Below are positions 2,244-24,543 of a DNA stretch of 35,978 nt, one piece after another. Both the position numbers and the translations under genes were made by a program. The DNA lies in the NCBI GenBank assembly GCA_017461045.1, contig JAFTZJ010000021.1:1-35978 (forward strand), given 5' to 3'. The notes below the pieces were generated by a model. It was not told the DNA's origin. It searched no databases and was given only the letters and a program-made list of their open reading frames with translations. This DNA comes from Lachnospiraceae bacterium. Its GTDB lineage: Bacteria > Bacillota > Clostridia > Lachnospirales > Lachnospiraceae. The first letter of the stretch is position 1. Every line of letters begins with the position of its first letter.

Positions 2244-2363
2244 GCAGATTTTCTTGACATGGAATAGCAGTATCCCTTAAAATTTTATTAATTGGCAAAG
2301 AATGCAAGCAACCGAGAGCGTAATAAAAAAAGAGGGGAATTTCCAAAATAATGCAAAAAGTGC

Positions 2364-2443: not shown

Positions 2444-4375
2444 ATGAAACAAAGAATCAAACAAATTCTTGCAGTAGCGATTTCAATCGTTATTTCGATG
2501 CAATTAATTCCAAACAATGTATGGACAACTGTGTTTGCAGCAACCTTGCACACGATTCAAGATGGAGATACGGTAACGATTACAGATGAATCTGCAGCTT
2601 ATAATATTTATAAGGTTATTAGTGGAGGAAGATTAGTTGTTGCAGACGGTGGTAAAGTGGAAGGCGAGATTGATGCAAGCTCAGTCGGTGAGGTTGAAGT
2701 TCAGGCTGGTGGCACAGTAACCAATAGTATTGTGGCATATGAATATGCTGAAATAACCGTTGCGGGTACGGTAGAGAATCTGGATATGGGCGGAAATGCA
2801 ACTCTGCAATTGAACTCCGGACTTATCAAAACTTTAACCGCTTCCAGTGCAACATCGGCTTTTTCGGTAATCGGCTCATCTACGGTACAAAATTTGAAAA
2901 TCTATCCGACGAATTTGAATTCCGGAACCAATGAAGCGAAAATTTACGCTGATTTCACCTTGGAGTTTGCGGCTGCAGGTGCAATGCCTTCTCATACGAA
3001 AATTGAAGTGACGGAAGATACAATTATTAATAATCCACACGGAACCTATGCAGATATTATTTGTAGCGGAATAACTTATCCGATTGTGACCGGTGCAACG
3101 GGTGTTACGATTTTTGATTATTATAATGTGGGAATTTCGGATGAAGCACTTATTATGGAGGAAGAGGTAGGATATACCACACCGGCAGAAGGGGTATTTA
3201 CCATAGAAAATAATGGCTTAGAGCCGGTCATGGTTGAATTGCCATTTCCGGATGATTTTATAGTGGAATATGATACAACTCAATCGTCAATTCCGGATTA
3301 TTATTCAATTCCGGCAGGGGGTAAAATAACAGCAACCGTAACTCCGAAGGCCGGATTAGCGGTTGGGGAATATGCAGAGACCATAGAGATGCATATGCTT
3401 TCCGGAAGAGAAAGTGTTGCCAGTGGAGCGAATTTGGAACTTGGGTCTATATCCTGTGAGTTGAACCTTTCGGTAAATCGTAAGCCGGGTGTTGGTTCTA
3501 TTCAGGTGTCTGACTCCTACTATGGAGGTACATATGCAGTTATTCCAAGTTCAGCAACCAATGGTGTAGCAAATGTGAAACTGGAGTATAAGGAACAGGG
3601 AGCAGATGACAGCACATTTACAACCACTCAGCCAACACAGGTAGGTAAGTACGAGGTTCGTGCATTTTTTGCACAGACAGATGAATATAACGAGGTTGTA
3701 ACAACAAAGCAATTCCAGATTGATTATCTTCCGGCACCGGAGGGGGCATACACCTTTAGCGGTAAGAAGGGAACCGGTGGATATTTCACTGAAAATGTAA
3801 CAATTACACCGGCAGAGGGATATTTGATTGCAAGCCAGTTGGATGGAAATTATACAGAGTCCTTAGCATTAACAGAAAATATGACTTCTATCTATCTGAT
3901 GAAGGCTGATACAGAAGAAAAGACGGCGGAAATTCCATTGGATACCGCAAGTGTAAAAGTAGATATACAGGAACCTGCAATTATCGGTGCAGTTAATGGA
4001 AGCACAATCTATAAGGATAAGGCACAAATCACCGTAACGGATGAGAATCTGAGTGCATTGACCGTAAATGGTGAGGCTGTTCAATTCCGAAACGGAAAAG
4101 CCGTACTTACACTGGATGCCGAGTATGGTTCGGTTGAGTATGTAATTGTTGCTAAGGATAAGGCAGGACATGAGAAGAAGATTACAGTAACAGTAGCAAC
4201 TCCTTGGTTAGAAACCGGTATTATTCCAAGCGGTTCTACCGTAAAGCTGAATGCAGAGCAGGCATATACCTTTGGCAGCGGTACCTGGCAGGTATCAGGG
4301 GATACTACCAATTATGCAGGTGGAGTTCAGTTCTATGTGCAGACAGAGGGCTCATATGTATTTAAGAAACAATAG
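2444..4375 (+). CDS. Secreted beta-rich surface protein of unknown function
   Basis: The 643-residue product begins with a basic N-region (KQRIKQ), a hydrophobic core and a probable signal-peptidase site near TVFAA. The mature part has repetitive, Gly/Val/Thr-rich short strands (about residues 30-130) that look like a beta-helix or beta-solenoid. Ig-like stretches follow, with one NRKPG-linked domain around 345-430 and a later one around 500-590 (VNGEAV...KDKAGH). I see no LPXTG, SLH or choline-binding anchor. The ATG at 2444 is preceded by AGGGAGGG at ideal spacing; an upstream TTG at 2426 is in frame but would precede that site. It is the first gene of the cluster and is followed directly by the membrane-anchored FecR protein, which may hold or sense it. 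No specific function is claimed. Confidence 0.75.
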   Translation: MKQRIKQILAVAISIVISMQLIPNNVWTTVFAATLHTIQDGDTVTITDESAAYNIYKVISGGRLVVADGGKVEGEIDASSVGEVEVQAGGTVTNSIVAYEYAEITVAGTVENLDMGGNATLQLNSGLIKTLTASSATSAFSVIGSSTVQNLKIYPTNLNSGTNEAKIYADFTLEFAAAGAMPSHTKIEVTEDTIINNPHGTYADIICSGITYPIVTGATGVTIFDYYNVGISDEALIMEEEVGYTTPAEGVFTIENNGLEPVMVELPFPDDFIVEYDTTQSSIPDYYSIPAGGKITATVTPKAGLAVGEYAETIEMHMLSGRESVASGANLELGSISCELNLSVNRKPGVGSIQVSDSYYGGTYAVIPSSATNGVANVKLEYKEQGADDSTFTTTQPTQVGKYEVRAFFAQTDEYNEVVTTKQFQIDYLPAPEGAYTFSGKKGTGGYFTENVTITPAEGYLIASQLDGNYTESLALTENMTSIYLMKADTEEKTAEIPLDTASVKVDIQEPAIIGAVNGSTIYKDKAQITVTDENLSALTVNGEAVQFRNGKAVLTLDAEYGSVEYVIVAKDKAGHEKKITVTVATPWLETGIIPSGSTVKLNAEQAYTFGSGTWQVSGDTTNYAGGVQFYVQTEGSYVFKKQ

Positions 4376-4435
4376 CAAAATTAATGTAAGAAAAGAAGAG
4401 AAAATCGGTTAAGTCGAATCGAGTGGGAGAACAAT

Positions 4436-5350
4436 ATGGAGAAGACAAAGAATAATAAAGTCATTATCATTATTATTGCCGCAGTTGCTGCTGTGCTATT
4501 GCTGGCAGGTGGAATATTCTTTTTGACAAAGGGAAAGGACGCATATCTGATTTTAAAGGTATTTGAAGTAGAAGGAGATGCGTTGGTAACCAGATTAAAT
4601 ACCGGTGATATTGTGCCATATAATAATATGGTGTTGGAATCCGGAGATAAAGTTTGTCTGAACACAGGCAAAATGACCTTACAGGCAGATGAGGATAAGT
4701 ATATTTATCTGGAAGAGCAGACGGAAATGGTCTTGGAAGCATCCGGAACCGGAGAGAACAGCAAGACAACGATTAACTTGACAAAGGGTGCGATTACAAA
4801 TGATATTCAGAATCCGTTGTCTGGAGAAGCCAGTTATGAAATTAATACACCGAACTCAACCATGTCGGTACGTGGCACAACCTATCGTGTAGCTGTATAT
4901 GAAGAAGATGGTGTTGTGTATACGAAGGTTTCGGTATTTGATGGTGAAGTTGCAAGTGCACTTTGTAAAAATGATGGAAGTATTTCAGATGAAGCATCAG
5001 TTGCCAAGGGAAAAGAAGTAATTATTTATGATGATGGAACCGTAACGGATTATGTGAGCGAGCCTCAGGATATTGATTACTCACAGTTGCCACAGGAAAC
5101 CATCGAATTGTTGATTCAGTTAACAGATGATGGAATTGATGTAGGTGCGGAAAAAGAAGAATTAGAGCAGTATTTGGAGCCGGGGCCGTTTACCGTAACC
5201 TTTACATATAACGGAACTGTATTCGGAACCCAGGAAGTAGAACGGGGCAAGACAGCATCAGAACCAACCTTGCTTCCGGCAACCAGTGGAAGCTGGAACT
5301 TTGACTTTACCACACCGATTACCAAGGATACGGAGATTCAGTGGCAGTAG
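4436..5350 (+). CDS. Membrane-anchored FecR-domain protein with C-terminal InlB B-repeat-like module
   Basis: The 304-residue product has a short basic cytoplasmic tail and one strong membrane helix (about residues 8-28). A FecR domain covers about 38-205; the segment TPNSTMSVRGTTYRV matches the family's TP...VRGT core. The last about 50 residues (TVTFTYNG...PITKDTEIQW) resemble the Listeria/Bacteroides repeat of internalin-type proteins. Classical FecR relays a signal from a TonB receptor to an ECF sigma factor. Neither exists here, so the FecR fold is probably used as an extracytoplasmic scaffold or sensor. Neighbours are the secreted protein upstream (60 bases) and the cNMP-binding phosphatase downstream (57 bases). 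The start has GGGAGA about 6 bases upstream. Confidence 0.8.
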   Translation: MEKTKNNKVIIIIIAAVAAVLLLAGGIFFLTKGKDAYLILKVFEVEGDALVTRLNTGDIVPYNNMVLESGDKVCLNTGKMTLQADEDKYIYLEEQTEMVLEASGTGENSKTTINLTKGAITNDIQNPLSGEASYEINTPNSTMSVRGTTYRVAVYEEDGVVYTKVSVFDGEVASALCKNDGSISDEASVAKGKEVIIYDDGTVTDYVSEPQDIDYSQLPQETIELLIQLTDDGIDVGAEKEELEQYLEPGPFTVTFTYNGTVFGTQEVERGKTASEPTLLPATSGSWNFDFTTPITKDTEIQWQ

Positions 5351-5407
5351 TTTAAGAGAAGAAGAGAGAAATTAGATTAATAAAACGGCTCAATATTTGG
5401 AGGGCGC

Positions 5408-6586
5408 ATGAACGCAGATTATTTAAGTACCTTACCGACAATTCAAGAATTTTTTCAAATCAATCCGGAAGAGGAACTGCAGGAGGGAACCAGACTATTT
5501 TTGGATGCCATGACGGAAGTGACGTTTTCGGATGGAGAAGATGTGGTAAGCTTCGGTGCGGGGAATGAAGACGGAATGTATATTATTCTGGAAGGTGCCA
5601 CTGTTGTATTAAGCCGTGAAGGAAAGAGAATTAACCGATTGGGTGCCGGAGATTTTATCGGTGAATTAGCACTGATGAATGATCAGCCGCGAGGGGCAAC
5701 TGTACGAGCTGTAGGAGAGGTAATATGTGCAAATATCTCAAAGCAGTTGTTTGAACAGGTTGCTACGGCGAATCCGAAGATATATGGTTCATTTATGAAC
5801 ATGCTATATACTAAGACAACGAAGCTGGTAACAGAGCAGGAACGGATTAAATCCGAACTGGCAGTTGCAACCAGAATTCAGGAAGGCTGTCTGGAGCATG
5901 ATTTCACAGGATTTAATCAATTGAAGGACGTGACAGTTACGGCTTGTATGCGTCCTGCGAAAGAGGTTGGTGGAGACTTTTACGATGTCTTTCGCATTGA
6001 TGATACACATCTTTGCTTTTTGATTGCAGATGTATCGGGAAAAGGCGTTCCGGCAGCGTTATTTATGAGTATGGCGAAAACCCATATCAAGAATTATGCA
6101 TCTTTGGGGCTGCCGCTTGCGGAGGTTGCCAGTCGTGCAAATAATCAGTTGTGTTATAAGAATGAAGAAGGAATGTTTGTTACTGTGTTCCTTTGTGTTC
6201 TGGATGTAGAAACCGGAGAAGTGAAATTCATAAATGCTGGACACAATCGGCCGTTTATCATGCGTGGAAACGGAGTCTTTGAGATGGTGCAGTGCAAAGC
6301 GAATCTGGTATTTGGCATGATGGAGGGCGTGCCTTATCGGGAACAAACCTTGCAGTTGGATAAGGGAGATTGCATCTATTTATATACGGACGGCGTAACG
6401 GAAGCTGTAAATCCACAGGAAGAATTATTGGGAGATGCGTATCTGGAAGATATGTTGAATCGTCACAAGGAACAGGCGGATTCTGTAGATGCATTTGTGG
6501 AAAGCATGTATGAAGAAATTGATCGTTTCGCAGATGGGGCAGAACAGGCGGATGATATAACGATGGTATATTTATATCGGAAGTAA
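5408..6586 (+). CDS. Cyclic-nucleotide-binding PP2C (SpoIIE/RsbU-type) serine phosphatase
   Basis: The 392-residue cytoplasmic protein has two domains. Residues about 35-150 form a CAP-type cNMP-binding domain with an intact phosphate-binding cassette (GELALMNDQPRGATV, including the Glu and Arg that contact the cyclic nucleotide). Residues about 185-392 form a PP2C-SIG phosphatase. It retains the metal-binding Asp residues in EVGGDFYD, ADVSGKG, LYTDGVTEAV and ADDITMV. Enzymes of this family dephosphorylate the phospho-serine of STAS anti-anti-sigma proteins. Here an adenylate cyclase gene follows after 16 bases, and RsbW-like and STAS genes lie further down. cAMP-activated dephosphorylation of the STAS protein is therefore a specific, testable inference. 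The ribosome binding site is TTGGAGGG. Confidence 0.92.
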   Translation: MNADYLSTLPTIQEFFQINPEEELQEGTRLFLDAMTEVTFSDGEDVVSFGAGNEDGMYIILEGATVVLSREGKRINRLGAGDFIGELALMNDQPRGATVRAVGEVICANISKQLFEQVATANPKIYGSFMNMLYTKTTKLVTEQERIKSELAVATRIQEGCLEHDFTGFNQLKDVTVTACMRPAKEVGGDFYDVFRIDDTHLCFLIADVSGKGVPAALFMSMAKTHIKNYASLGLPLAEVASRANNQLCYKNEEGMFVTVFLCVLDVETGEVKFINAGHNRPFIMRGNGVFEMVQCKANLVFGMMEGVPYREQTLQLDKGDCIYLYTDGVTEAVNPQEELLGDAYLEDMLNRHKEQADSVDAFVESMYEEIDRFADGAEQADDITMVYLYRK

Positions 6587-6602
6587 ACGAGAGAGGAAAA
6601 GT

Positions 6603-8396
6603 ATGAAAAATAAGTGGATACAAGACATATTAGAAGCAGTCGTAGCCATGGTGCTGGTGTTTTTGTTGACCATTTCCAATGTGTTATCGCCGTTGGATTA
6701 TATCCTGAAGGATGCGTTTTATCAGGTGCCGAGAGGAATCAATAATGATATCAAAATCATTGGTATTGACGAAAGAACCTTAGAGGAATTAGGACCGATC
6801 AATACCTGGTCACGACAGACCTATGCAGACTTGATTGAGATTCTGAATTCGAATGAGGAAGCAAAACCGGCAGTAATCGGATTGGATATTTTGTTCTCCG
6901 GACATGTAGACGAAGAAGGGGATTTGGCATTCGCTAAGGCAGTAGAGGAAAGCGGAAATGTAATAGCTGTTTCCCAATTTATTTATAGTGAGCGGGGAAT
7001 CCGGAATCAAGACGGAATGGTGGATTATCCCATTGAAGAGATATTGTATCCATATGATGAGTTGAGAGAAAATGTGACGCTTGGATATTCCAATGTGGCA
7101 CAGGATTCGGATGGTACGGTTCGACGAATGATTCCATATCAGGAGTTCAATGGGGAAACCCAGAAAATGTTCTCACGTGCAATTTATGAAATGTATTGTG
7201 AGAACCAAGGAATTGAAATTAACGAAATTACAGTAGATAAATACAATCGAGCAATTATTAATTATTCCGGAAGACCGGGTAACTATGAATGCATTTCCAT
7301 GATTGATGTGTTGGAGGGAAAAATTGATCCTCGTGCTTTTCAGGGAAGTATTGTTATGGTAGGTGCATATGCAACCGGTATGCAGGACGATTTTAATGTG
7401 CCAAATGGTGGCAGTAAGCGGATGTACGGAGTGGAAATTCATGCAAATGTGGTGCAGTCTTGTATGCAGAATTCCTTTGCTGTCAATGCGAATCCGTATT
7501 TGGTGGGGGCAATTCTGGGACTGATCTGCGGATGTCTGCATCTGTTGTTCAAAAGAAGCAAAATTTGGCTGGGACTGATTGTGCTTCTGGTGGCTGTGGC
7601 AGGTGAGATTGCGGCAGGTGCGGCTTTGAACAATCACGGATATACCATGAGCTTGATTTATTTTCCACTTGTGGCGGTGATTTCTTATGTATATTCTTTA
7701 GCACTAGGATATCTTCTGGAGCGGAGAAAACGGAAAAAGGTGCTGAACGCATTTAAGAAATATGTGGCACCGGAAATTGTAGAGGAGATTTCTAAGAAGG
7801 GAGATTTCCAGATAAAATTAGGTGGTGAAAATCGTGATATTGCGGTACTTTTTGTGGATATCCGCGGATTTACCACTATGTCAGAGGTGCTTACACCGGA
7901 GCAGGTAGTTGAAATTCTGAATCAATATCTGAATCTGACGACGAATGCAATCTTTAAGAACAAAGGTACTTTGGATAAGTTCGTAGGAGATGCTACCATG
8001 GCGGTGTTTAACTCGCCGTTTGATTTGGAAGATTATGAGTTCAAGGCGGTTTGTGCAGCAATGGATATTGTTGAGGGCGGAATCGCTTTGGAAGACAAGT
8101 TAATGAAGGAATATGGAAGAACCGTTGGTTTTGGTGTTGGTGTAAACTGCGGACCTGCGGTTGTAGGAAATGTTGGTTGTGAGTTTCGAATGGACTTTAC
8201 TGCCATTGGAGATACGGTAAACACAGCGGCACGTTTGGAAGCAAATGCGAAAAAGGGACAGGTCTTGATTAGTGATGCCATTTATGAGCGAGTAAAAGAC
8301 CGTGTAGAGGTAGAAGAGGTTGGAGCTATCCCGTTAAAGGGTAAATCCAACGGCGTATTTGTATATTCTGTAACGAAGGTAAAACGTGACGCATAG
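6603..8396 (+). CDS. CHASE2-domain class III adenylate cyclase, membrane sensor type
   Basis: The 597-residue product has an N-terminal membrane helix (about 10-30) and an extracytoplasmic CHASE2 sensor (about 35-290, starting DYILKDAFYQ and IKIIGIDERTLEELG). Three membrane helices follow (about 297-385), then a class III cyclase domain (about 405-597). Both metal Asp residues are present (FVDIRGFT and FVGDATMAVF). The Lys in LDKFVGD and the Thr in DFTAIGDTVN are the usual purine-selecting positions for ATP, and the transition-state Asn and Arg occur in NTAARLE. It should therefore be an active cAMP synthase rather than a guanylate cyclase. It sits directly after a phosphatase with a cNMP pocket, a likely effector. 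The extracellular ligand is unknown. Confidence 0.93.
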   Translation: MKNKWIQDILEAVVAMVLVFLLTISNVLSPLDYILKDAFYQVPRGINNDIKIIGIDERTLEELGPINTWSRQTYADLIEILNSNEEAKPAVIGLDILFSGHVDEEGDLAFAKAVEESGNVIAVSQFIYSERGIRNQDGMVDYPIEEILYPYDELRENVTLGYSNVAQDSDGTVRRMIPYQEFNGETQKMFSRAIYEMYCENQGIEINEITVDKYNRAIINYSGRPGNYECISMIDVLEGKIDPRAFQGSIVMVGAYATGMQDDFNVPNGGSKRMYGVEIHANVVQSCMQNSFAVNANPYLVGAILGLICGCLHLLFKRSKIWLGLIVLLVAVAGEIAAGAALNNHGYTMSLIYFPLVAVISYVYSLALGYLLERRKRKKVLNAFKKYVAPEIVEEISKKGDFQIKLGGENRDIAVLFVDIRGFTTMSEVLTPEQVVEILNQYLNLTTNAIFKNKGTLDKFVGDATMAVFNSPFDLEDYEFKAVCAAMDIVEGGIALEDKLMKEYGRTVGFGVGVNCGPAVVGNVGCEFRMDFTAIGDTVNTAARLEANAKKGQVLISDAIYERVKDRVEVEEVGAIPLKGKSNGVFVYSVTKVKRDA

Positions 8397-8410
8397 AGAG
8401 GAGGGTGCCA

Positions 8411-8836
8411 ATGGAGGAAATAGAGCGTAGTATTGAGGTAGAAGCGACTCTGGAACAATTGGACTACGTAATGGGTCTTTTGGAAGAAACCTTGGAGGAA
8501 GCCGGTTGTCCCATGAAAAATTCAATGCTAATTGCAGTTTCTGTAGAAGAGTTGTATGTAAATGTAGTAAGCTATGCTTATACACCAAATATCGGTAATT
8601 GTAAGATTCGTGTACATGCGGAATGCGAGGAAGAACATGGAAGTGTACGGATTGAATTGCGTGATAAAGGAATTCCGTTTAATCCTTGGTTAAGAGAAGA
8701 CCCGGATACCACACTGTCGGCAGAGGAACGGCAAATTGGCGGTTTGGGAATCTTTATGACAAAGAAAAATATGGATCGGTACGATTATCAATATGCGGAT
8801 GGTGAAAATATAGTGACAATCGAGAAAGACTGGTAA
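8411..8836 (+). CDS. RsbW/SpoIIAB-like anti-sigma serine kinase (GHKL ATPase)
   Basis: The 141-residue single-domain GHKL ATPase has all key boxes: the N-box (VSVEELYVNVVSYAY, with Glu and Asn), the G1 box (RDKGIPFNP) and the G2 box (GGLGIFMTKKNMD). Family members bind a sigma factor or other target and phosphorylate a STAS antagonist on Ser. I chose the ATG at 8411 because GGAGGG ends 5 bases before it; an in-frame GTG at 8405 overlaps that site. No sigma factor gene is present in the window, so its target is elsewhere or is not a sigma factor. It belongs with the STAS gene immediately downstream. Confidence 0.9.
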   Translation: MEEIERSIEVEATLEQLDYVMGLLEETLEEAGCPMKNSMLIAVSVEELYVNVVSYAYTPNIGNCKIRVHAECEEEHGSVRIELRDKGIPFNPWLREDPDTTLSAEERQIGGLGIFMTKKNMDRYDYQYADGENIVTIEKDW

Positions 8837-8864
8837 GAGAAAGAGAGAAAAAGGTTATCAGGTT

Positions 8865-8884
8865 AAAAGGAGGATATTATGTAA
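8865..8884 (+). other. Strong ribosome binding site leading to ATG-TAA (start-stop) before the STAS gene
   Basis: AAAAGGAGG (8865-8873) is followed after 5 bases by ATG (8879-8881) and at once by TAA (8882-8884). The frame then continues open for 11 codons (ATT AAG AAG AAT CAA ...) to the ATG at 8918. Reading the stop as AAA would give the normal STAS N-terminus MKIKKNQNG. The site is either a nonsense mutation of codon 2, a base-calling error, or a start-stop regulatory element. Confidence 0.85.
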
Positions 8885-8917
8885 ATTAAGAAGAATCAAA
8901 ATGGGTCAGAGGTTACA

Positions 8918-9181
8918 ATGGCGATTGCGGGACGTTTGGATACCAATGCAGCGGTGGATTTCGGAAAGGCAATCGAGGAGACATTGGTGGATGGAGTAAC
9001 TGCATTTACATTGGATATGGCTGATTGCGCATATGTAGCCAGCTCCGGCTTAAGAGTTATTCTGAATGCACAGAAGAAGATGAATTCTTTGCAGGGAACA
9101 ATGGTACTGAAGAATGTTGTAAGTGACGTTATGGAAGTATTTGAAATGACCGGATTCTCAGATATTTTAACATTTGAGTAG
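8918..9181 (+). CDS. STAS-domain anti-anti-sigma protein, 5' end disrupted
   Basis: The 87-residue open part is a STAS domain with the helix-capping GRLDTN motif and the phosphorylation loop ADCAYVASSGLRV, whose Ser is the residue an RsbW-like kinase modifies. Family members are usually about 100 residues and begin with a strand encoded here by the 11 codons after an ATG-TAA (8879-8884). Translation from the ATG at 8918 would omit that strand; AGAGG lies 5 bases before it, so some expression is possible. The codon-2 stop could instead be a base error, in which case the gene is 8879-9181 and intact. Its neighbours (RsbW-like kinase before, GGDEF after) and the PP2C phosphatase make it the expected switch protein of the cluster. 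Confidence 0.8.
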   Translation: MAIAGRLDTNAAVDFGKAIEETLVDGVTAFTLDMADCAYVASSGLRVILNAQKKMNSLQGTMVLKNVVSDVMEVFEMTGFSDILTFE

Positions 9182-9221
9182 GATGGAAGTGCAAGTAGAA
9201 GGTAGTAATAAGGAGGGTGTT

Positions 9222-10520
9222 ATGGACTTTAATGCAGAGATTGTAAAATTCGTATCCGGAAAGATTGGCGGCCTGGTAATTATGACAGCCGGCTCCAGTG
9301 AGATAGTATTTGCGGATGATTTTTTCGTAAACAAGCATGGCAGTGATGTTGTGGGGATGTATGGAGATGATGTATTTCCATGGTTAGCGGATTGCCCAGC
9401 CTTAGAGGTAGATGGTGATGTAGCAGAGTGGGAAAGTATTGACACAGATACGAAGAAGTATTATCGGATTGAATCTGCCATGTTCGAGAAAGAAGAGAAG
9501 AAATATCAGATTCATCAATTAACGGACATTACAGAGTACATGGGTCTGAACCGTGATATTACGAAGTATATGTCATTTTTCAAGAAGCTGTCCGGATTCC
9601 AGTCGGCAGTGTTGAAGAAGCTGTCCAGTACATATTATGAGTTGATGCCGATGCTGGCAGATTATTTTGTAACCAACAAGGCTTACTTTATGATTCAACG
9701 AGAAGGCAAAGTTGATATTATTACATATAACAAGATTGGAAATGTCTACAGTAATGACCGGATTGAGATGAATGCAGAAATCGGACAAATGCTTGCCGGT
9801 GAACATAGCGATAATATGATGTTCGCAGATTTTGCAAAGGAAGTTCAGGAAGTATTTGCATTAACCGGAAGTAATGAGGAAAGCGAATTCCGCATGCTGT
9901 GTCAAGGATCAGTTTCCGGGCAGAAATATGCAGTATACCTTTCTATGTGGCCAAATACAGACGTGGCTTCCATGAAGGAAAGCACCTTGCTTAGCGTAAT
10001 CCGTTTGTACTTAGAAAATGGCATCATGCGTGAGAAGCTCATTTATGAGAGCGAGCATGACCGTTTAACAGGATTGTACAATAAGGGTAAATATTTGACC
10101 ATGATGGAGGAGGAATATCCAAATCTGGATTCCATTGCAATTTTTAACTTTGATGTAAATAACCTGAAGGTGTTAAATGATACGCAGGGACATGAAGTAG
10201 GAGACAGGCTGTTGGTTAAGGCGGCAAACAGCATCCGTAAGGTAACTAATAATAAAGTACATGGTTACCGGATGGGTGGCGATGAGTTCTTAATGATTGC
10301 ATGTAATGTGACTGAGGATGAGGCTAAGGGCCTGCAGGAACGTTGGGAAAAGGAATTAGCCCGTCTGAATACCATTGAAGACGGTATCAACTGTGTAATT
10401 GCAGTAGGAGTTGTGTATGCACAAAAGGAATATGATTTGCCTGCTATGTTGAAAAAAGCAGATGAGTTAATGTATGAGGATAAGAAGCGCAAGAAGAAAC
10501 CGGGAGAAGAGATTCGGTAA
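9222..10520 (+). CDS. GGDEF-domain diguanylate cyclase with PAS/GAF-like N-terminus
   Basis: The 432-residue protein has an N-terminal sensor-like region (about 1-105, PAS-like, ending HQLTDITEYM) and a middle region (about 120-265) that could be GAF-like. The C-terminal GGDEF domain (about 275-425) begins DRLTGLYNKGKY and carries the exact catalytic signature YRMGGDEF. The RxxD inhibitory site normally five residues before GGDEF is absent, so simple product inhibition is not expected. There is no EAL or HD-GYP domain and no membrane segment. The ATG at 9222 follows AAGGAGGG; an earlier in-frame start overlapping the STAS stop lacks such a site. Product c-di-GMP would fit a role in pilus or surface behaviour together with the PilT gene that follows. 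Confidence 0.9.
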   Translation: MDFNAEIVKFVSGKIGGLVIMTAGSSEIVFADDFFVNKHGSDVVGMYGDDVFPWLADCPALEVDGDVAEWESIDTDTKKYYRIESAMFEKEEKKYQIHQLTDITEYMGLNRDITKYMSFFKKLSGFQSAVLKKLSSTYYELMPMLADYFVTNKAYFMIQREGKVDIITYNKIGNVYSNDRIEMNAEIGQMLAGEHSDNMMFADFAKEVQEVFALTGSNEESEFRMLCQGSVSGQKYAVYLSMWPNTDVASMKESTLLSVIRLYLENGIMREKLIYESEHDRLTGLYNKGKYLTMMEEEYPNLDSIAIFNFDVNNLKVLNDTQGHEVGDRLLVKAANSIRKVTNNKVHGYRMGGDEFLMIACNVTEDEAKGLQERWEKELARLNTIEDGINCVIAVGVVYAQKEYDLPAMLKKADELMYEDKKRKKKPGEEIR

Positions 10521-10584
10521 AGAGTATGTGATGATGCCGAAAGTAAAATCCGGAGAGAAACGATAATATCTAGGAGGGAATAAA

Positions 10585-11631
10585 ATGAATTTTGATGAGT
10601 TAATTAGTTATGCAAAGCAGGAAGGTTGTTCAGATGTACATATTACGGTAGGTACCGCGTTGGCAATTCGTCAGTTCGGTAAATTGAAAATGTTAGATCC
10701 GGTTCCGACAGCAGAGGAATCCAAGGCAATGATTTTGGAGTATCTGACAGAGGAGCAGAGGGAGAAGATTTTAGCAGGCGAGGATTTGGATTTCGCATTA
10801 ATTATCAAGGATGGTACCCGTCTGAGAGCCAATGTATATCACCAGAGAAATAACCTGGCTGCTACCTATCGACTGTTGCAGGAGAAGATTCCGACCTTTG
10901 ATGATTTGGAAATTCCGGAAGCAGTACGGAAATTAGTACGTGAGCCAAGAGGTCTGATTCTGGTTACAGGACCAACCGGAAGTGGTAAGACAACCACTCT
11001 TGCTTCTATGGTTGATTATGTAAATAAGAAAGAAGCAAAGCACGTTATTACAATTGAAGATCCGATTGAGTATGTATATTATCATTCAAAGTCTATGATT
11101 CATCAGAGAGAGGTTGGCAAGGATGTAGATACTTTTGCAAAGGCACTTCGTTCTGCATTGCGTGAAGACCCGGATATTATTTTGGTTGGTGAAATGCGTG
11201 ACTATGAAACGATTAGTGCGGCAATTACGGCAGCAGAAACCGGACATTTGGTATTATCAACTTTACATACCACCAGTGCAGCACAGACCATTGAGCGTAT
11301 TATTGATGCATATCCGCCACATGGTCAGGCACAGGCAAGAACACAGCTTGCAAGTGTATTAAAGGGTAGTGTAACACAGGTATTGGTTCCGTTAGAAAAT
11401 GAAGACGGAATGACCATTGCAACAGAAGTGTTGATTAACAACGATGCGATTGCAAACCAGATTCGTGAAAATAAGACACATCAGATTCCGTCTACCATTT
11501 TAAGTGGCGGTAGTGTTGGTATGCACAGCTTGAATTCTGATTTGAAGCGTTTGGAAAGAGAAGGACGTATTTCAAGAGAAACTGCATTGAAGTTCTGTTC
11601 AAGTCCTAAGGAATACGAAAGTGCACGTTAA
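10585..11631 (+). CDS. pilT: PilT-type pilus retraction ATPase
   Basis: The 348-residue hexameric secretion-type ATPase would power retraction of type IV pili at the inner face of the membrane. It has the Walker A GPTGSGKTTT, the Asp box (ITIEDPIEYV), Walker B (ILVGEMRDYETI) and the His box (LVLSTLHTTSA). A C-terminal segment (ANQIRENKTHQIPS) corresponds to the AIRNLIRE region characteristic of PilT. Length is normal for PilT. No pilin, PilB, PilC or PilQ gene is in the window, so it is an orphan placed at the end of a signalling cluster. The ribosome binding site is TAGGAGGG. Confidence 0.93.
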   Translation: MNFDELISYAKQEGCSDVHITVGTALAIRQFGKLKMLDPVPTAEESKAMILEYLTEEQREKILAGEDLDFALIIKDGTRLRANVYHQRNNLAATYRLLQEKIPTFDDLEIPEAVRKLVREPRGLILVTGPTGSGKTTTLASMVDYVNKKEAKHVITIEDPIEYVYYHSKSMIHQREVGKDVDTFAKALRSALREDPDIILVGEMRDYETISAAITAAETGHLVLSTLHTTSAAQTIERIIDAYPPHGQAQARTQLASVLKGSVTQVLVPLENEDGMTIATEVLINNDAIANQIRENKTHQIPSTILSGGSVGMHSLNSDLKRLEREGRISRETALKFCSSPKEYESAR

Positions 11632-14200: not shown

Positions 14201-14229
14201 AACAGCCGGCAAAACGCCGGCTGTTTTTT
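14201..14229 (+). terminator. Terminator of the 52-codon gene, possibly bidirectional with pckA
   Basis: A perfect 10-bp stem, AACAGCCGGC (14201-14210) with GCCGGCTGTT (14216-14225), is followed by T's. The minus-strand side has a shorter T-run, so it may also serve the convergent pckA gene, which ends at 14255. Confidence 0.85.
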
Positions 14230-16368: not shown

Positions 16369-17661
16369 ATGAAAGAATATTTAAATAGAATTGTGGATGA
16401 GGAATTAGAACTTAGACTGGAAGCATTTGGAGCAACGCTTATTGTAGGGCCTAAATGGTGCGGTAAAACGACGACTGCGGAAGAGAGAGCGAATAGTGTG
16501 TTGAAGATGCAGGATCCGGATATGAGAGAGGGATATTTGACTACAGCGAGGACTAAGCCGTCTCTTTTGTTAAAAGGCGATAATCCGCGTCTTATTGATG
16601 AGTGGCAGGAGGCACCGGTTTTATGGGATGCAATAAGGACAGCTGTAGATGATAGGCAAGAAGAAGGATTGTTCATATTGACGGGGTCTACTTCTGTCGA
16701 TGATAAACGAATTCATCATACGGGAACCGGTCGAATTTCCAGATTAAAAATGAGTACAATGAGCTTGTATGAATCAAAAGAGTCAAATGGGCAAATCTCA
16801 TTGAAAGACCTGTTTGATAATCCGAATTTGGATATTGATGGTATCATATCTGATATGAAGGTTGAAGAATTGATTTTTGCAGCGTGCAGAGGTGGTTGGC
16901 CATCTTCATTAAGGAAAAAAAGTAATGAGGCAAAGTTGATAGTTGCAAAAGACTATTTGCGTAATGTGTGTGAGTCGGATATTTCTACAGTGGATGGAGT
17001 GTCACGTAATCCTTTATTAGCAGAACTAATCTTGAAGTCATATGCGCGTAATATTTCGACGTTAGCAAAAAGAAGCGTAATCTATAAAGATGTTAGTGCA
17101 AATGCTGAAAGCATATCACGTTCGACATTTGATGCATATTTGACAGCATTAGAACGATTATTTGTTATTGAGGATGTAGAGGCATGGTGTCCGGCAATAC
17201 GTTCTGCAACTACAATTCGTTCGGGGCAGAAGAGAGAGTTTGTAGACCCTTCTATAGCAGTTGCGGCATTAGGGTTAACACCGGATTATTTAGAAAAAGA
17301 CTTGAAAACATTTGGCTTTATTTTTGAATGTATGTGTATTAGAGATTTGAAAATTTATTCACAAGCATTAAATGGAAAACTCTCATATTATCACGATAGA
17401 TATGACTTGGGAGCAGATGCCGTATTGCATATTGGTGATGGGCGATATGCCTTAATTGAATTCAAGTTAGGGAGTGCAGAGATTGAAGAAGGAGCAAAAC
17501 ATTTATTAAGAATACGTAAACTGGTGAGAGAGTATAATGAAAAGGAAAGACAAGTTCCGCTTAGGGAACCAGATTTGCTCATGGTAATTACAGGTGGAAA
17601 TATGGCCTATACGCGGGATGATGGTGTGAAAATAGTACCTATTGCTTGTTTAAAAAATTAA
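16369..17661 (+). CDS. AAA-family ATPase with C-terminal DUF4143 domain
   Basis: The 430-residue protein has an AAA_14 ATPase domain (about 1-180) with Walker A GPKWCGKTTT and Walker B RLIDEWQEAP, and a sensor-like LTGSTS. A DUF4143 region follows (about 200-420). Near its end, ADAVLHIGDGRYALIEFKLGS (quoted in part as D...EFK) looks like a PD-(D/E)XK nuclease core, which some DUF4143 members keep. Such genes are common, often multicopy, in gut Firmicutes and Bacteroidetes, and their function is not established. It has its own promoter preceded by three 23-bp repeats. Its more A/T-rich codon use differs from flanking pckA, consistent with separate acquisition. Confidence 0.88.
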   Translation: MKEYLNRIVDEELELRLEAFGATLIVGPKWCGKTTTAEERANSVLKMQDPDMREGYLTTARTKPSLLLKGDNPRLIDEWQEAPVLWDAIRTAVDDRQEEGLFILTGSTSVDDKRIHHTGTGRISRLKMSTMSLYESKESNGQISLKDLFDNPNLDIDGIISDMKVEELIFAACRGGWPSSLRKKSNEAKLIVAKDYLRNVCESDISTVDGVSRNPLLAELILKSYARNISTLAKRSVIYKDVSANAESISRSTFDAYLTALERLFVIEDVEAWCPAIRSATTIRSGQKREFVDPSIAVAALGLTPDYLEKDLKTFGFIFECMCIRDLKIYSQALNGKLSYYHDRYDLGADAVLHIGDGRYALIEFKLGSAEIEEGAKHLLRIRKLVREYNEKERQVPLREPDLLMVITGGNMAYTRDDGVKIVPIACLKN

Positions 17662-24208: not shown

Positions 24209-24264
24209 ACTTATTAGTAACGCGTAGATACAGGTAATGTATCATTGCAATAATTCAATAACTA

Positions 24265-24522
24265 CACGCAAGGAAGAGAAGAGTACGTAAGAAGGACATT
24301 TACAGAGAATCTGGATGGCTGAGAACAGAGAATGAAGAGCTTATGGAAGATGGTCTTGGAGCGTTGGGCGTGAGCATATGTTAGCGTCCGATGGGAGCAC
24401 CCATTATAGTGCAGAACTGTAATTGCAGTTCCTGAGTCTGGCATCGTGAGGTGTCAGAGAATTAAAGTGGTACCACGGGATTATACTCGTCTTTAAGATG
24501 TTTCTTAAAGGCGAGTTTTTTT
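24265..24522 (+). promoter_or_regulatory. T-box leader (tRNA-Met-sensing) controlling metG
   Basis: The conserved T-box (ATTAAAGTGGTACCACGGG, about 24461-24479) is unmistakable. Its TGGT can pair with the ACCA end of uncharged tRNA. A terminator follows: 24485-24498 pairs with 24503-24516 (one G-U) and then a T-run to 24522. Stem I can be built from CACGC (24265-24269) with GCGTG (24368-24372). An AGTA loop-E motif lies at 24282-24285, and CGTAAG (24286-24291) pairs with CTTATG (24340-24345). The specifier side then reads GAAGATGG (24346-24353), placing Met codon ATG at 24350-24352. The specifier position is my hand-fold; the T-box itself is certain. It lets metG be read through when tRNA-Met is uncharged. 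Confidence 0.93.
24485..24522 (+). terminator. T-box-controlled intrinsic terminator before metG
   Basis: A 14-bp stem, loop TGTT, and a seven-T run. It competes with the antiterminator that contains the T-box sequence. Confidence 0.9.
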
Positions 24523-24543
24523 ATGATTAGGAGGAGAAGGAAA

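Follow-up and report, generated by a model that had tools for sequence, protein, structure and literature searches.

Do the eight genes at positions 2444-11631 of contig JAFTZJ010000021.1 (Lachnospiraceae bacterium, assembly GCA_017461045.1) form one signalling pathway and, if they do, what does that pathway control? The window analysed here, 35,978 nucleotides long, is the whole of contig C57 of that assembly (G000; 1.88 Mb, 67 contigs, 67.5% complete); in what follows G numbers denote genomes of the sample, L numbers stretches fetched for comparison and C numbers contigs. A first-pass annotation of the window had proposed that the cluster joins cyclic AMP (cAMP), serine phosphorylation and cyclic di-GMP (c-di-GMP) signalling, with release of an RsbW-like kinase ahead of a change in surface behaviour. 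Our analysis shows that the cluster is a real conserved signalling unit and that the wiring proposed earlier was half right; the reading we favour, with a probability of about 0.5, is a partner switch gated by cAMP, with a diguanylate cyclase under its control.

In this pathway a FecR protein and a CHASE2 domain would sense something outside the membrane and the CHASE2 cyclase, judging from its residues, would make cAMP, which would bind the cyclic nucleotide monophosphate (cNMP) domain of a PP2C phosphatase and, via a linker, switch the phosphatase on. The phosphatase would then strip from the serine of a STAS protein the phosphate that the RsbW-like kinase, by family precedent, is expected to place there, and the free STAS protein would dock on the N-terminal region of the diguanylate cyclase, probably at residues 101-146, and set its activity, most likely on, as SiaC does to SiaD. 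In the weakest step of the scheme, c-di-GMP would act on surface behaviour, possibly on pili by way of the MshEN motif pair of PilB and the PilT encoded in the module.

A gene block conserved in Lachnospiraceae

The eight genes all lie on the + strand with gaps of 14-64 bp, as the first-pass annotation had described, and their Pfam and NCBIfam domains run in the order FecR, cNMP_binding with SpoIIE/PP2C, CHASE2 with Guanylate_cyc, HATPase_c_2, STAS, GGDEF and PilT, behind a gene for a surface protein:

2444..4375, +, surface protein with a Glucodextran_B-like domain (PF09136, 27.1 bits, cut-off 27); signal peptide and repeats by eye
4436..5350, +, FecR-domain protein (PF04773, 39 bits) with one N-terminal hydrophobic stretch by eye; candidate input partner
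5408..6586, +, cNMP-binding domain (PF00027, 59 bits) fused to a PP2C/SpoIIE phosphatase (PF07228, 175 bits); candidate cAMP reader and STAS phosphatase
6603..8396, +, CHASE2 sensor (PF05226, 158 bits) fused to a class III adenylate cyclase (PF00211, 84 bits)
8411..8836, +, RsbW/SpoIIAB-like Ser kinase (PF13581, 71 bits)
8879..9181, +, STAS protein (PF01740, 49 bits); target Ser codon at 9041-9043, possible internal start at 8918
8882..8884, +, in-frame TAA at STAS codon 2, read in the sequence; a sense codon in 8/8 relatives examined
9222..10520, +, diguanylate cyclase (PF00990, 94 bits) with a 280-residue N-terminal region; residues 101-146 are the candidate STAS dock
10585..11631, +, second PilT-type motor of a module-specific clade (TIGR01420, 434 bits, cut-off 319), with AIANQIRE replacing AIRNLIRE

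A gene-neighbourhood search in Lachnospiraceae recovered a five-gene core (cNMP-PP2C phosphatase, CHASE2 cyclase, RsbW-like kinase, STAS protein and diguanylate cyclase) in nine genomes: that of the window, G001 (L033), G006 (L032 and L131, on two contigs), G051 (L034), G244 (L115), G224 (L118), G169 (L139) and two that are close to each other, Lachnospiraceae UBA3820 (L150) and the goat-rumen genome RGIG3620 (L151). The order was shuffled once, in L139 (CHASE2 cyclase, TIM barrel, STAS, kinase, cNMP-PP2C, diguanylate cyclase), with the set retained. At the protein level the window shares 47-76% identity with L033, in the core genes and PilT, and with L034, in the core genes. A FecR gene accompanied 8/9 modules, the ninth contig (L151) beginning inside the surface gene, and surface-protein homologues were present at variable positions in the blocks of L032, L033, L034, L115, L118, L150 and L151, with none found in the L139 block.

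Among 397 genomes of the family, CHASE2 was present in 61 and a full cNMP-PP2C, among the matches listed, in 12 (one cut by a contig end). The two occurred together in 11 genomes (Fisher p 5e-9), and of the nine genomes with the N-terminal region of the diguanylate cyclase six had the cNMP-PP2C (p 1e-8) and seven CHASE2 (p 4e-5), in tests that treat genomes as independent, ignoring relatedness, and with search models built from module members. The CHASE2 cyclase was on the same stretch as the cNMP-PP2C in 8/12 (G000, G051, G244, G169, G224, G155, G386 and G405); the cNMP-PP2C genes of G055, G402 and G108 were on contigs of 3.8-5.7 kb, and G108 was without a CHASE2 match. At the level of the class, 2/391 genomes matched at E<=1e-95, and these two again belong to this family. 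Recurrence in nine genomes and significant co-occurrence support the earlier contention that the cluster unites genes of cAMP, Ser-phosphorylation and c-di-GMP signalling.

The cyclase, the phosphatase and the STAS switch

The CHASE2 protein exhibits the features of a class III adenylate cyclase, namely a metal Asp pair, a substrate Lys and transition-state Asn/Arg: motif scanning and alignment with PDB entries located the metal Asp, the Lys of GTLDKFVGD and DFTAIGDTVNTAARLE, with CyaB and further adenylate cyclases among the PDB matches. The phosphatase carries a phosphate-binding cassette with Glu and Arg of the cAMP-receptor (CRP/PKA-R) type, GELALMNDQPRGATV, which aligned to PKA-R, and the PP2C motifs GGDFYD, ADVSGKG, YTDGVTEA and QADDIT. 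The claims that the cyclase retains its catalytic and ATP-selecting residues, and the phosphatase both its cassette and its metal sites, were thus confirmed; the roles of single catalytic and ligand residues in the cluster proteins we take to be those of their families. From these residues, both the product of the CHASE2 cyclase and the ligand of the cNMP domain are predicted to be cAMP. The window phosphatase was the single cNMP-domain match in the 67.5%-complete genome G000, where the window cyclase was the only CHASE2 match and class III cyclases numbered two. In G002, G003 and G007, module-free genomes of the same genus that are 94-99% complete, there was one PilT but neither a cNMP domain nor a class III cyclase (G004 and G005, also module-free and of this genus, stood outside the comparison).

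Of the 27 CHASE2 loci flanked by 4 kb or more on each side, 19 had a FecR gene in the same orientation no more than 8 kb away, as did 20/37 when all loci were counted, compared with 0/92 control PP2C loci. By this association FecR is a candidate input partner, and the arrangement is already known from other phyla: in Campylobacterota most genes for CHASE2 adenylate cyclases share a cluster with those for a cAMP phosphodiesterase and for FecR-domain and TPR proteins (PMC9239204), and in Sinorhizobium meliloti the FecR-domain protein SMc02177 is, by locus number, encoded beside CyaD1 (PMC5498481). These and the other published reports cited here are drawn on in part; in the sections used, the Campylobacterota and S. 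meliloti clusters share with the window the CHASE2 cyclase and nearby FecR-domain protein but no PP2C, STAS protein or diguanylate cyclase is mentioned, and the S. meliloti reader is the Crp-type regulator Clr. Genes for cNMP-DUF2225 proteins also adjoin FecR genes and CHASE2 cyclases (L139:3562-4740, L139:8512-9720, L138:6804-7949 and L130:4122-5303), and these proteins are possibly another cAMP reader for the same input.

Control of a PP2C domain by a regulatory domain has a parallel in SpoIIE-type PP2C phosphatases with a helical switch (PMC5468089), and myxobacterial PP2c-type phosphatases have been described with a C-terminal cNMP domain, whereas here the cNMP domain is N-terminal and the phosphatase of SpoIIE type (PMC2887360). 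Natural fusions lend support to the upstream steps of the relay: cNMP, PP2C and RsbW are joined in one 535-residue open reading frame with STAS adjacent (L117:12674-14278), and CHASE2 is fused straight to PP2C in one open reading frame with no cyclase between (L220:6625-8631).

A cyclase beside a cNMP-sensing protein could also suggest an anti-phage system of the Pycsar kind, in which the cyclase would feed a cNMP-sensing effector, and PADLOC gave matches of this sort, the cyclase scoring 98 bits with PycC and the cNMP domain 47-48 bits with TIR-effector/PycTIR models. These matches are generic, however, and beside the cyclase the block has neither a TIR nor a membrane effector that senses cNMP: the sensor forms one protein with PP2C, the cyclase has CHASE2 and is conserved with STAS, kinase and diguanylate cyclase, and it possesses what we take to be the Lys/Thr set of ATP cyclases. 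We consider a defence role highly improbable and rejected it.

The cluster also contains the set of a SpoIIE/RsbU-RsbW-RsbV-type partner switch, with a PP2C, a GHKL Ser kinase with N/G boxes and a STAS protein with a target Ser co-encoded. The N, G1 and G2 boxes of the kinase and the STAS Ser, aligned with that of SpoIIAA, were intact in 11/11 aligned sequences (those of L118, L150 and L151 included), in agreement with the first-pass annotation. A PDB search with the single kinase sequence gave no match, a solved relative being found only with the family profile. By family resemblance, the kinase is expected to phosphorylate the STAS serine and the phosphatase to reverse this. One correction is required: the window STAS gene has a good Shine-Dalgarno sequence and an ATG at 8879, followed at once by the TAA at 8882-8884, and its frame is open only afterwards. 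The remaining frame is well kept (67% identity to L033 and 65% to L034) and relatives have intact copies. The TAA may be an assembly error, a strain lesion, or a sign of restart at 8918 with loss of the first strand.

Diguanylate cyclase and pilus motor as proposed outputs

What the switch acts on is suggested by the gene that follows STAS. The STAS and diguanylate cyclase frames abut in 8/9 modules and, outside the module, STAS lies 3 bp from the diguanylate cyclase in L245 (G160), where PP2C and kinase genes follow 4.5-6.2 kb past STAS with no cyclase or cNMP gene beside; these loci show the gene pairing of STAS-controlled diguanylate cyclases of the Hsb/Bgr kind. The window protein has the GGDEF motif, and a motif scan found no RxxD inhibitory site upstream of it, where we take such a site to lie. 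Its 280 N-terminal residues matched no Pfam family above cut-off. A PAS or GAF identity for this region was discarded, there being no Pfam backing and only a non-significant FixL match (E 1.2). The region was found in 9/397 genomes of the family at E<=1e-10, with 7/9 of these cyclases beside partner-switch genes and five inside the module; in L048 the diguanylate cyclase frame overlaps a PP2C gene, followed by a kinase gene, with a STAS gene 0.9 kb off. Within the region, 26/46 positions of residues 101-146 were invariant among the nine module cyclases compared with 24/229 in the rest, figures that are descriptive only since the block was picked after viewing the alignment. SiaC grips the helical stalk of SiaD ahead of the GGDEF domain (PMC8457831), and residues 101-146 are therefore a candidate STAS dock.

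The closest parallel is SiaABCD of Pseudomonas aeruginosa, likewise composed of a phosphatase, a kinase, a small switch protein and a diguanylate cyclase, in which the switch protein, unless phosphorylated, binds the cyclase (PMC8457831). It differs in that SiaC is a DUF1987 protein whereas the window encodes a true STAS, no cAMP gate is described for Sia in the sections of that report used here, and our module adds the CHASE2 cyclase, FecR and PilT; the NCBIfam models gave only 46 bits (SiaA, cut-off 700) and 78 bits (SiaD, cut-off 290). STAS proteins themselves have precedents as partners of diguanylate cyclases in BgrV-BgrR of Sinorhizobium (PMC8457831) and in HptB/HsbA-HsbD of P. aeruginosa, where binding depends on phosphorylation and HsbD modulates type IV pili (PMC5085249). 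These systems are proteobacterial and of other domain make-up, and HsbA-HsbD takes its input from the HptB pathway, not from cAMP.

The Hsb precedent bears on polarity. HsbD binds phosphorylated HsbA (PMC5085249), and were the phosphorylated STAS the form that binds here, cAMP would lower c-di-GMP. The gene order is compatible with either polarity, but SiaC, once phosphorylated, neither binds nor activates its cyclase (PMC8457831), and we judge the Hsb-like arrangement unlikely.

The first-pass annotation had placed RsbW release after the phosphatase and STAS, followed by a change in surface behaviour. The genes fit a phosphatase acting on STAS, but the next element is the diguanylate cyclase and the release of RsbW found no support: no SigB-type sigma factor is encoded in the cluster, STAS abuts the diguanylate cyclase, and exactly two SigB/F/G-type factors scored above cut-off in each of eight genomes, module present or absent. 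Two such factors are expected for sporulation, and because the count is unchanged with or without the module we rate a sigma-factor output low. A classical anti-sigma switch, with the RsbW-like kinase holding a sigma factor encoded elsewhere and the diguanylate cyclase and PilT as independent neighbours in related roles, would draw on the membership of kinase and STAS in the RsbW/SpoIIAB and SpoIIAA families. Against this, the kinase scored 26 with the NCBIfam RsbW model (cut-off 145) and the pairing of STAS with a diguanylate cyclase recurs outside the module, and we regard this explanation as a long shot. Scarcely better placed, and distinctly unlikely in our view, is an operon of co-expressed surface functions whose STAS switch cross-talks with a second set of STAS, RsbW and a 601-residue PP2C, which does exist in G000 (C66, L037); retention of the gene set under a shuffled order (L139) and the fusions in L117 and L220 argue for direct wiring instead.

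As to a cAMP-gated switch that acts through c-di-GMP on pili, the PilT of the module has the TIGR01420 score and the Walker A/B, Asp and His boxes of PilT/PilU motors (PMC6762196, PMC4237445), and differs from these in forming its own clade beside the diguanylate cyclase and in its altered AIRNLIRE motif. The gene follows the diguanylate cyclase in 6/9 modules (partial at the L150 stretch end). In the tree, six module rows (one partial) were set apart from nine other PilT-type rows with support of 100/100, and the window protein is 48% identical to the housekeeping copy. At the place of AIRNLIRE, A[IV][AS]NQIRE was present in 5/5 module copies covering the region and the other nine PilT-type rows keep the Arg, the housekeeping PilT of G000 also departing from the motif (AIRSLIRD) with its first Arg retained. 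As AIRNLIRE is absent in PilU (PMC6762196), the module PilT may be a modified or helper motor. The type IV pilus operon of G000 is on C60 and encodes PilB and a PilT of its own, together with PilC, a pilin and a prepilin peptidase recognised by eye. In the MshEN domain of this PilB, five residues separate two motifs of 24 residues each, a pair that fits the relaxed c-di-GMP-binding motif with conservative departures from the strict one (PMC5013675).

Besides the relatedness ignored by the Fisher tests and the stop at codon 2 of the window STAS, several observations weigh against this reading. The module is patchy, a full-length cNMP-PP2C being found in 2/7 other genomes of the same genus (G001 and G006) and missing from five. 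In the isolate Lachnospiraceae NC2008 (G379), the cNMP-PP2C, the CHASE2 cyclase and a weak relative of the diguanylate cyclase are on three contigs (L288, L111 and L244, the first of them letter-identical to L153). Two of the nine diguanylate cyclases with the N-terminal region, those of L246 and of L244 (one flank 1.6 kb long), have no nearby partner-switch gene, and cNMP-PP2C and CHASE2 occur without such a diguanylate cyclase in L117 and L144 (flanks of several kb) and L141 (a 5-kb contig). On the pilus side, PilT is missing from 3/9 modules (L115, L139 and L034, with only 1.0 kb of contig left in the last), the PilB motif pair was present in 3/10 PilB-type rows (G000, G001 and the module-free G007), and G006 carries the module yet has a single PilB motif; since the pair does not track the module, our confidence is lowered. 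PilZ counts do not track it either, with matches in 10/12 genomes and none in G051, which has the module, or G055, and no c-di-GMP-I riboswitch was found in G000, with matches in 5/12 genomes tested. Pilus retraction is a possible output of the module, which has a pilus motor of its own.

At gathering score Rfam gave no match inside the module genes of the window, L033, L034, L118, L115 and L134, and a c-di-GMP-I riboswitch was accordingly dropped as an output. Eight c-di-GMP-I riboswitch matches were present in the module carrier G169 (C29, C35, C41, C42, C46 and C51).

Control of diguanylate cyclases by switch proteins, cAMP acting on c-di-GMP turnover and cNMP domains on PP2C phosphatases are already known; Bd1971 of Bdellovibrio, for instance, reads cAMP through a cNMP domain and alters c-di-GMP metabolism, although it does so directly, being a cNMP-EAL protein that breaks down c-di-GMP with no protein phosphorylation involved (PMC6717892). 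What appears to be new is the combination of cAMP gate, partner switch and diguanylate cyclase, and its home in Lachnospiraceae; no cAMP-STAS-diguanylate cyclase relay was found in the open-access listings and passages covered, subscription papers being mostly outside the search. To our knowledge, roles of cAMP are little described in these anaerobes. If the reading is true, cAMP would feed into c-di-GMP by way of protein phosphorylation in a Gram-positive bacterium, and the module offers a small testable gene set with a candidate switch-docking region, a second-messenger-linked PilT paralogue and, as described below, a candidate new phosphodiesterase family.

TIM-barrel companion, transcription and flanking features

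The most surprising lead lies outside the window. A xylose-isomerase-like TIM barrel of about 260 residues (PF01261) was found within 4 kb of a CHASE2 cyclase, receiver-linked cyclase, cNMP-PP2C or other cNMP gene in 15 genomes, at loci that had been fetched for those cyclase and cNMP genes. TIM barrels near CHASE2 or cNMP genes include, among others:

L034:12075-12890, TIM barrel
L115:7172-8035, TIM barrel
L139:11613-12398, TIM barrel
L130:7558-8355, TIM barrel
L138:8026-8826, TIM barrel
L288:10979-11764, TIM barrel
L118:13860-14714, TIM barrel

It adjoins the CHASE2 cyclase in L034, L115, L119, L130, L138 and L139 and the cNMP-PP2C in NC2008, and was present at 9/36 CHASE2 loci compared with 0/94 control loci (1.47 Mb). 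Profile matches in the PDB were to MJ1311 (7e-22) and to TTHB071 and endonuclease IV (1e-5 to 0.02); no sugar isomerase came below 0.04. All nine metal ligands of endonuclease IV, as we take their identity and numbering to be, were present in 15/15 barrels, which points to phosphoester hydrolysis and not to sugar isomerisation. The barrel is thus a candidate cyclic-nucleotide phosphodiesterase, and its placement parallels that of the known-type cAMP phosphodiesterase in the Campylobacterota CHASE2 cluster (PMC9239204). A full two-messenger relay, in which the CHASE2 cyclase would write cAMP and the cNMP-PP2C read it, STAS would pass the signal on, both to a dedicated PilT and to a dedicated diguanylate cyclase whose docking region is new, and the TIM barrel would be the eraser, a new type of cyclic-nucleotide phosphodiesterase, is a tentative and on balance improbable extension.

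In G000 itself the TIM barrel is the N-terminal part of a TIM barrel-GAF-GGDEF protein beside the second, receiver-linked cyclase (L230). This locus (L230:6352-11672, on G000:C32) comprises the fusion, a TIR_2 protein, the receiver-class III cyclase and a 372-residue protein of no assigned family, and relatives of the last three were found in L231-L234. The receiver-cyclase motif, GTIIEFLGD, is without the Lys that we take to be a marker of ATP cyclases.

The transcription signals of the window were as follows:

2254..2283, +, promoter-like site TTGACA-18-TAAAAT (top score of the scan, 11/12; consensus match only)
14201..14225, either strand, hairpin and T run at which the transcription unit may end, past galE and two Gate-domain genes

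The site at 2254-2283 is possibly the single promoter of the operon, and Shine-Dalgarno-like sequences were seen by eye ahead of each gene from FecR through PilT. The absence of an internal terminator, also put forward by the first-pass annotation, held: each of the seven terminator-like sites listed for the + strand from 2444 to 11631 falls within a gene, and the ten over the whole scanned stretch are close to the shuffle mean of 7.8. galE begins 3 bp past PilT and, with a hairpin and + strand T run at 14201-14225, the transcription unit may extend to take in galE and the two Gate-domain genes. These had no match in the 3.8 kb after PilT in L033, which places them outside the conserved block as far as seen.

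Elsewhere in the window, an AAA_14/DUF4143 ATPase at 16369-17661 matched the PADLOC candidate family PDC-S01 (180 bits), and a T-box leader at 24262-24497 lies upstream of a methionyl-tRNA synthetase-like gene at 24523.

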